The notes under the pieces: model-generated
Databases searched by the model: none
What the model was told of the DNA's origin: nothing
What the model saw: only the letters and a program-made list of their open reading frames with translations
From: Planctomycetaceae bacterium
Lineage (GTDB): Bacteria > Planctomycetota > Planctomycetia > Pirellulales > UBA1268
Direction of reading: 5' to 3'
Length of the DNA: 41,627 bases
Assembly (NCBI GenBank): GCA_021300535.1
Contig: JAJTED010000021.1
Location: 1-41,627 of the forward strand
Program-made: the position numbers and the translations under genes
Part shown: piece after piece, positions 5,792 to 32,602 of the stretch
Numbering within the stretch: the first letter of the stretch is position 1
Layout of the letters: every line of letters begins with the position of its first letter

Positions 5792-6652
5792 TCAGGCCGC
5801 CTTGCGGGTGGTGCCGGCATCCACGGGCGTGCCTTGGGCATCGCGTTCCCAGGGTTTGACCAGGCCATCGACGCAGAACGTCGGCCGCTGGCGCAGCGCG
5901 TGGAAGTAGGCGAGGTTGGGCGTGCCGGCGTTGTTGCGGACGAAGCTCGCCGGCGCGGGATGCCAGAGGTGGATCGGTGCGGTGGCGAGGAGGATCGAGG
6001 TCACCCGCAGCCCGAGCCGCTCGAGCCGGCACTGCAGGTCGCGATCTTCGAGTCCCCAGCCCACGAAGCCTTCGTCGAAGCCGTTGACCCGCTCGAAGTC
6101 GTCCCGCCACATGGCGATGTTATTGCCGGAGAGCCGCGGCCGCATCGGCACCCGGCCCCATTCGTAGGCCTTGGCCCGCAGCCCCTTGAGCCGCAGCCGC
6201 CAGGCTTCCGCCCGGGGCACGAAGCGGGAGACGTCGCCGTCGTGAATCACATCGACGTCGATGCGTGCCGAGGTCGCCGCGTCGAGCCGGATGCAGTCGC
6301 CCCCCACGACCCGGCCCCGGCGCCGCAGCGCCAGGTGATGCCGGAGATGGTCGCGGGGCAGGATGCAATCGCCGTCGGTGAACAGCAGGTAGGGCGCCGT
6401 CGAGGCGGCAGCGCCCTCGTTGCGGCATCGCGCCAGACGAAAGCCGGCGTGTGCGTGCGTCGTGAAGGTGAGCGGAAAGTCCACGCGTCGGGCCGTGGTG
6501 GCGATCAGCCGCAGGGTCTCGTCCTGGGAGCCGTCGTCGGTGACGACCACCTCGAACCGTCCGGCGACGCCCGCCTGGACCTCGATGGAAGCGAGGCAGC
6601 GGCGGAGGTGCTCGGGCCGCTGATAGGTGGAGACGATGACCGCGATGTCCAT
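5792..6652 (-). CDS. Family 2 glycosyltransferase with galactosyltransferase-type C-terminus
   Basis: A GT-A fold enzyme of 286 residues. MDIAVIVSTYQRPEHLRRCL and VVVTDDGSQDET are the nucleotide-sugar binding start, and LFTDGDC at about 91-96 holds the metal-binding DxD equivalent. GWGLEDRDLQCRL at 198-210 is the conserved acceptor-side block of the Glyco_transf_7C type. A longer start (TTG, two codons upstream) is possible, but ATG at 6652 has GGGAG about six bases upstream and is preferred. No membrane segment is evident, so it probably acts in the cytoplasm. First gene of the three-gene cluster; it probably adds a hexose to a surface glycan, donor unknown. Confidence 0.85.
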   Translation of the reverse strand: MDIAVIVSTYQRPEHLRRCLASIEVQAGVAGRFEVVVTDDGSQDETLRLIATTARRVDFPLTFTTHAHAGFRLARCRNEGAAASTAPYLLFTDGDCILPRDHLRHHLALRRRGRVVGGDCIRLDAATSARIDVDVIHDGDVSRFVPRAEAWRLRLKGLRAKAYEWGRVPMRPRLSGNNIAMWRDDFERVNGFDEGFVGWGLEDRDLQCRLERLGLRVTSILLATAPIHLWHPAPASFVRNNAGTPNLAYFHALRQRPTFCVDGLVKPWERDAQGTPVDAGTTRKAA

Positions 6653-30860: not shown

Positions 30861-31910
30861 TCACTGGATCCACTCCTTCGCCCGCGCGCCGGGGCGGGCC
30901 CGCACCAGGCGGGGCACCGCGTAGCCGGGCAACGATTCACGCAGGCCGCGGTGCAACGCGATCGCCCGCTCCGCGGCGACCTCGAAGTGGGCGGCCCCGG
31001 CGACACGATCGAGCAGATGCAGGTAATAGGGCATGACCCCGATCTCCACCAGCCGCTCCGCGAGCGCCCGCTGGGCCGCGAGGGAATCGTTGACCCCGGC
31101 GAGCAGCACCGCCTGATTGAGCAGCAGCGCTGGGGCGGCCGCCATCCGACGCGTCGCGTGCTCGACGGTCGCGTCGAGTTCCTGGGCATGGTTGGCGTGG
31201 ATCACGACGACGGTCGTGAGCCTGGTCGCCGCGAGGGTGGCGACGAGGGCGTCGGTGACCCGCGCCGGCAGGACCACGGGCAGCCGCGAGTGGATCCGCA
31301 GCCGGCGCAGATGGGGGATCGCCTCGAGGCGGCCGACGAGGTCGGCGAGCCGTGCGTCGTCGAGCAGCAGCGGGTCGCCGCCGGAGAGGATGACTTCCGT
31401 GAGCGTCTCGTCGCCGGCCACCGCCTCCACGGCGGCGGCCAGTCCGGCCTGGGTGACGCCGTTCTCGGCGTAGGGGAACTCACGGCGAAAACAGTAGCGG
31501 CAGTTCACCGCGCAGCCGCCGGCGGCCAGGAGGAGTCCGCGGCCGGGGTACTTCCGCAACAAGCCCGGTGCGGCGAGGGTCGCCGCCTCGTCGAGCGGAT
31601 CGGCTGTGAAGCCCGCGGCCGGAATCTGTTCGGCGGCCGCCGGCAGCACCTGGAGCAGCAACGGATCACGGGGATCGCCCGGCCGCATCCGCGCCGCGAA
31701 GCCACGCGGCACCAGCAGCGGAAAGCCGCCCATCGCGGCCCGCGCGGTCGCGGCGCTGTCGGCATCGAGCGCGAGCAAGGCGCAGAGTTCGGCGGGGTCG
31801 CGGATGGCGGCGGCGAGTTCCCGCTGCCAGGTGGCGGGGGCGTGCCGTGCGGCCGCCGGGCCGGTCTCGGGCGGCAGCGGCGGCGACGGGGCGACCGGGA
31901 GCGACTGCAT
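30861..31910 (-). CDS. epmB: EF-P (R)-beta-lysine pathway aminomutase, EpmB-like radical SAM enzyme
   Basis: 349 residues of the lysine 2,3-aminomutase family. C133-C137-C140 in GGCAVNCRYCFRREF bind the 4Fe-4S cluster and SAM, and LTEVILSGGDPLLLDD and RLRIHSRLPVVLPARV are family blocks. Length and the short N-terminus match EpmB, which makes (R)-beta-lysine for attachment to EF-P, rather than the longer catabolic KamA. The gene stands divergent from efp, 169 bases apart, which supports this role. EpmA, the ligase, is not in the window. The neighbouring efp is broken across the loop that would receive the modification. Confidence 0.85.
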   Translation of the reverse strand: MQSLPVAPSPPLPPETGPAAARHAPATWQRELAAAIRDPAELCALLALDADSAATARAAMGGFPLLVPRGFAARMRPGDPRDPLLLQVLPAAAEQIPAAGFTADPLDEAATLAAPGLLRKYPGRGLLLAAGGCAVNCRYCFRREFPYAENGVTQAGLAAAVEAVAGDETLTEVILSGGDPLLLDDARLADLVGRLEAIPHLRRLRIHSRLPVVLPARVTDALVATLAATRLTTVVVIHANHAQELDATVEHATRRMAAAPALLLNQAVLLAGVNDSLAAQRALAERLVEIGVMPYYLHLLDRVAGAAHFEVAAERAIALHRGLRESLPGYAVPRLVRARPGARAKEWIQ

Positions 31911-32079: not shown

Positions 32080-32602
32080 ATGCCCGCCTACAACACCAGC
32101 GAGTTCAAGAAGGGCCTCAAGGTCCAGATCGACGGCGATCCCTACATACAAGTGCAAGCTGCGGAACCTGCTGCGAAACACCGTGCTCGACCGCACCTAC
32201 AAGAGCGGCGACTCGCTCGACGCGGCCGACATCAGCACGATCGAGGCCCAGTACCTGTACAAGCAGGGCGAGGCGTTCGTGTTCATGGACAACGCCAACT
32301 ACGAGCAGTACGAGCTGTCCAAGGAGCAGGTCGACGACGCCTGGAAGTGGATCAAGGAAGGCACGGTCTGCTCGATGCTCCTCTACAACGGCAACCCGAT
32401 CTCGATGGAGCCGCCGAACCACATGGTGCTCAAGGTCGAGTATGCCGAGCCGGCGATCCGCGGCAACACGGCGACCAATCTGACGAAGCCGGTGAAGCTC
32501 GAGACCGGCGCGGAGGTGATCGTGCCCGCCTTCATCGAGCAGGGCGACACGATCAAGATCGACACGCGGACGGGCGACTACCTGGAGCGGGTGAAGGTCT
32601 GA
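32080..32602 (+). pseudogene. efp: efp broken by a short deletion and frameshift
   Basis: ATG 32080 (GGAG 6 bases upstream) starts a normal EF-P N-terminus, MPAYNTSEFKKGLKVQIDGD then PY. At about 32142-32149 the coding frame changes: the remainder (YKCKLRNLLRNTVLDRTYKS onward to the end, DTRTGDYLERVKV) lies in the +1 frame and ends at TGA 32600-32602. Between PY and YKC a normal EF-P has about 15 residues, including the KPGKG loop with the modified lysine; that stretch is missing. The span of 523 bases is about 44 short of a ~188-codon gene. Domains 2 and 3 are otherwise well conserved, so the damage is recent or is an assembly error. Confidence 0.85.

Follow-up and report, generated by a model that had tools for sequence, protein, structure and literature searches.

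The activity of EF-P depends crucially on a loop that extends to the peptidyl transferase centre (PMC6544042). The efp gene examined in this work lies in a stretch of 41,627 nucleotides from a draft genome of a Planctomycetaceae bacterium (the window, which is the whole of contig C193), and it resembles EpmA/EpmB-modified EF-P systems in encoding the N-terminus, the OB domain and the C-terminal domain, in adjoining epmB, and in being accompanied by an epmA homologue elsewhere in the genome. The likeness extends to the copies of relatives, which bear the KPGKG motif. However, the assembled gene differs from such systems in that it is loop-less and split over two frames, and no natural loop-less EF-P is reported in the titles and abstract openings surveyed. 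Also relevant are local assembly errors, which, together with scaffolding gaps, place incomplete or incorrect protein-coding sequences in public databases (Chen et al. 2020, PMC7111523). The present draft is similar to the MAGs with local assembly errors described there in that genes of a single draft are broken by missing stretches at unmarked joins. Whereas the errors in that paper were recognised by missing read support, the diagnosis presented here comes from relatives and from essential genes.

The split efp gene and its partners

Direct reading of the sequence places the efp start codon, ATG, at position 32080 of the window. The 5' piece of the gene (MPAYNTSEFKKGLKVQIDGDPY-; 32080 to 32146, forward strand) comprises the start codon and the N-terminus up to the break, resembles the EF-P N-termini of relatives and was matched in a search of the genome itself with an E value of 1.8e-8. 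The 3' piece (32147 to 32602, forward strand) encodes the end of the N-domain, the OB domain and the C-terminal domain, with the YKCKLRNLLRNTVLDRTYKS... frame spanning 32147 to 32599 and the stop codon occupying 32600 to 32602. This piece scores 194.1 bits against TIGR00038 (cut-off 185.8) over profile positions 35 to 184, and both the OB and C-terminal domains exceed their cut-offs (PF01132, 80.9 bits; PF09285, 86.1 bits), while EFP_N is matched partially, from position 34 only, with a score just below its cut-off (22.5 versus 23 bits). A complete KOW-like N-domain is not found in a single frame with the remainder of EF-P, the break falling at 32146/32147. With a codon model trained on the window's other genes, the change of frame maps to this same point. 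The initial annotation had described an efp start and N-terminus followed by EF-P residues in another frame, and this description holds.

Pairwise alignment with the efp genes of relatives, which the initial annotation had proposed as a check, revealed a single gap in every one of the 29 cases, always of exactly 47 bases. The gene had been thought about 44 bases short; it is indeed short, although the estimated size was incorrect, and since 44 and 47 both leave a remainder of two, the frame shift is as originally described. The counterpart of the gap in relatives comprises 15 residues, mostly MIECNFVKPGKGQAL, plus two bases, and includes the KPGKG loop, so that the assembled efp is without the loop and its modified lysine, as had been claimed. 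The junction reads CCCTACA/TACAAG, can alternatively be placed one base further to the right, and shows one base of homology when compared with 28 of the 29 relatives and none with the other; both frames are open across it. Slippage between the short tac (TACA) repeats, which had been suggested as the origin of the deletion, should take out 51 bases, preserving the frame, and spare a single TACA. Both copies are retained here, with the intervening stretch absent, hence this origin is not supported. An intergenic repeat was considered also as a cause of the gap and was discarded, the nearest copy being 578 bases away.

The divergent neighbour of efp, epmB (30861 to 31910, reverse strand), is intact, as had been noted, with a score of 427.2 bits against TIGR03821 (cut-off 369.3). 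The gene was matched in 38 of 40 genomes, including the genome under study, and efp and epmB are adjacent on one contig in 18 of the 19 congeners that have both; in the remaining congener (G014) both genes lie at contig ends. The search for epmA elsewhere in the genome, likewise proposed beforehand, located a homologue on contig C47 (positions 1495 to 2406 of locus L033), the best family of which is TIGR00462, with a score (281.6 bits) slightly below the cut-off of 286.9. This cut-off may be over-strict for planctomycetes. The lysS gene is separate from the epmA homologue, on contig C154. Both genes of the EpmA/EpmB pathway are accordingly present in the genome.

The genome searched comprises 4,010,312 bases in 197 contigs and is 86.4% complete; within it, neither a second efp gene nor any match to the DNA pattern of the loop was found. 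Among 60 genomes, including the present one, efp was matched in 57, and the named relatives whose efp is closest are planctomycete MAGs, several titled Planctomycetaceae or Pirellulales. Exactly one match was found in 33 of the 36 other genomes of the same family, with two of the remaining three (77% and 51% complete) having no match and the third having one match accompanied by a 20-residue scrap. Of 23 genomes outside the family but within the order, 13 have an additional, distant match to the efp query, and these second matches are paralogues of about 33–40% identity. The loop is in frame at 125 of 128 efp loci from other genomes, a set that includes many single places fetched twice; the other three are uninformative, L056 and L117 being without the N-terminal part of the gene and L135 being unmatched. 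A short match in genome G021 was examined as a possible second broken efp, but the gene there is truncated where the contig ends and retains an intact loop.

The codons that remain beyond the break were also compared with those of 21 relatives from the same family (17 congeners and four from other genera). Across these 151 codons no residue is unique to the genome under study, synonymous codon differences number 23 to 42 per pair, and the average nonsynonymous/synonymous value is 0.34 for this genome versus 0.35 among the relatives; there is no sign of relaxed selection in this part of the gene. The gene thus appears to have passed through no measurable period free of selection, which fits either an error or a real event of very recent date.

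Broken genes elsewhere in the same assembly

Several other genes of the same assembly (G000) are broken. In rpoC (contig C175, near 6103 of locus L231) exactly 76 bases are absent relative to 13 of 13 relatives, and the C-terminal part of the gene has one match in the genome. Similarly, pheT (contig C190, near 3048 of L151), which also has one match in the genome, is without exactly 169 bases that are present in six congeners; the 13 relative loci retrieved yielded 11 that were tried, and these six aligned cleanly, L173, L174, L177 and L184 being dropped for an unmatched anchor and L185, from another family, for want of a clean gap. The gap in an HPF/cold-shock-like gene (contig C90, near 3850 of L154) is exactly 47 bases relative to four of four relatives, the closest among 13 relative loci. 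In a PspF-like activator gene (contig C20, near 10011 of L142) the evidence is motif spacing, with two motifs being 95 bases apart here versus 174 in the five of 13 relative loci in which both motifs were visible. For folD (contig C40, near 5143 of L217) the family match is in two frames with approximately 31 profile positions skipped, and the main gaps, the size of which is approximate, are 98 bases (two loci), 125 (two) and 92 (one) among the five of 13 relative loci that gave an anchor, three of which have additional gaps that partly cancel. Family matches in two frames were observed also for rimO (contig C125, near 11405 of L226; approximately 44 profile positions skipped) and for an oxalate decarboxylase gene (contig C165, near 3431 of L230; approximately four positions skipped). 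Two further candidates gave less: a glutamine-synthetase-like candidate (L215) matches GlnA through its first piece alone, and in a hydrolase-like candidate (L154) the second piece has no match. The junctions in efp, rpoC, pheT and the HPF-like gene show 0–2 bases of homology, and the lost stretches range from 47 to 169 bases, with 51–74% G+C in relatives.

A bacterium whose only rpoC is cut and out of frame is not viable, therefore at least some of the deletions in the draft must be false. Indeed, lesions of the class found in efp recur within this assembly in rpoC and pheT, two genes that have to be intact, as is expected of local assembly errors.

The frequency of such breaks was assessed by a survey of same-strand changes of coding frame without a nearby stop codon, in the window and 40 further stretches of the genome. 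The minimum segment was lowered from 90 to 60 bases and the stop rule altered after the first form of the survey missed efp, with the loosened rule being used identically on the stretches from this genome and from relatives. The 504,351 bases taken from the genome contain 131 junctions, 29 of them with such a change (12 of 71 in the 278,301 bases of the window and first 20 stretches; 17 of 60 in the 226,050 bases of the second 20), versus three of 49 junctions in 286,108 bases from 15 stretches of relatives, which lie on efp-bearing contigs and are a non-random sample, the codon model having been trained on the window itself. The chance that at least 29 of the 32 changes would fall in this genome according to coding length is 0.0005 (binomial), and comparison by junction counts gives 0.015 (Fisher). 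The count is nevertheless crude: homology confirmed eight of the 29 candidates, efp included, the three in relatives are raw candidates, and some of the 29 seem to be false alarms, a repetitive protein in L228 for instance. Since many of the candidates are without confirmation, it is the exact gene cases that carry weight.

Two additional features were observed in these stretches. A run of 40 N at 583 to 622 of L217 (contig C40), across which the frame changes in a gene that resembles DAHP synthase by eye, is a marked scaffold gap, and marked gaps thus exist in the assembly. A histidine-phosphatase-like frame at 5960 to 6376 of L137 (contig C47) ends after about the first third of the family profiles, and is possibly one more broken gene.

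Origin of the efp gap

Given that the same assembly has such gaps in essential genes with a single match, the 47-base gap in efp is, with high probability, a local assembly error. The initial annotation had listed a deletion arisen in assembly among its possible explanations, and the like deletions in rpoC, pheT and other genes support it. The flanks of the loop would have been joined nearly bluntly and the intervening stretch dropped, with the same technical cause presumably acting at efp and at the other genes; the near-blunt joins suggest that the assembler probably linked the flanks in scaffolding or across a spot of low coverage. The living organism, then, most likely carries a single, ordinary efp that includes a KPGKG loop, the lysine of which would be modified by EpmB and EpmA.

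The initial annotation had also raised the recent loss of EF-P function. A genuine, very recent deletion of 47 bases in the sampled strain or sub-population could have inactivated EF-P, with epmB and epmA persisting for now, and several observations are compatible with such an event: the gap is exact and its flanks are otherwise good EF-P, the genome yielded neither a second efp nor the loop DNA, and the unchanged codons downstream also suit a very young event. Were it true, the locus would be a natural snapshot of EF-P loss, with epmB and epmA left without a substrate, in contrast to the other sequenced members of the family, which keep EF-P. However, the loop is present at every informative locus of relatives, the junction differs from the product expected of slippage between the TACA repeats, and rpoC and pheT are broken in like manner. 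Had efp been lost naturally, the essential genes should be sound; as they are broken, a biological reading fails this control, and recent loss is considered improbable. EF-P, unlike RpoC, is dispensable in some bacteria, and for this reason the damage to rpoC and pheT renders such an error likely at efp, rather than proven.

Two further explanations are weaker still. The genome being 86.4% complete, a second, intact efp could be sought in the roughly 14% that is unassembled, as had been envisaged at the outset, and a distant second match does occur in the 13 genomes noted above from elsewhere in the order. Those extra matches are, however, the distant paralogues described, and no other genome of the same family has a second full match, hardly any likelihood being left to this explanation. 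Alternatively, efp could be real as assembled, with programmed frameshifting or ribosome hopping yielding a loop-less EF-P, in keeping with the two frames being open over the junction and with the conservation of the downstream protein. Yet the product would still be without the loop that PMC6544042 presents as crucial for activity, the arrangement is absent from all relatives seen, and like breaks of other lengths occur in rpoC and pheT, such that recoding seems scarcely credible.

With assembly error as the preferred explanation, the landing of the gap on exactly the part of EF-P that is modified by the enzyme encoded next door is best read as coincidence, since the assembly has many such breaks and one of them hit the loop. 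The gap is most likely uninformative with respect to EF-P biology. It is instead cause for caution: because rpoC and pheT are broken alike, apparent gene loss in this draft is untrustworthy, even when it falls at an exact functional loop, and pseudogene calls in the draft need care. An inexpensive control is to see whether essential single-copy genes are likewise broken in the assembly concerned, which can take one most of the way to resolving such findings even without reads.

A REP-like intergenic repeat

A REP-like intergenic hairpin (AAGCCCCCGGCGGNAGCCGGGGGAC) is present in 12 copies in the window, at positions 567, 8775, 8941, 12006, 13013, 29027, 29156, 29201, 30637, 30814, 32724 and 41462. 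The genome as a whole has 380 matches with at most two mismatches, whereas nine of 12 congeners have none and the remaining three have 2, 10 and 12. Seven of seven genomes outside the family but within the order likewise have none. On these counts the hairpin is a lineage-specific expansion. In 504 kb of the genome, all 60 of 60 copies with at most three substitutions lie in segments that are non-coding-like, and some copies are paired, at distances of about 120 or 165–175 bases.
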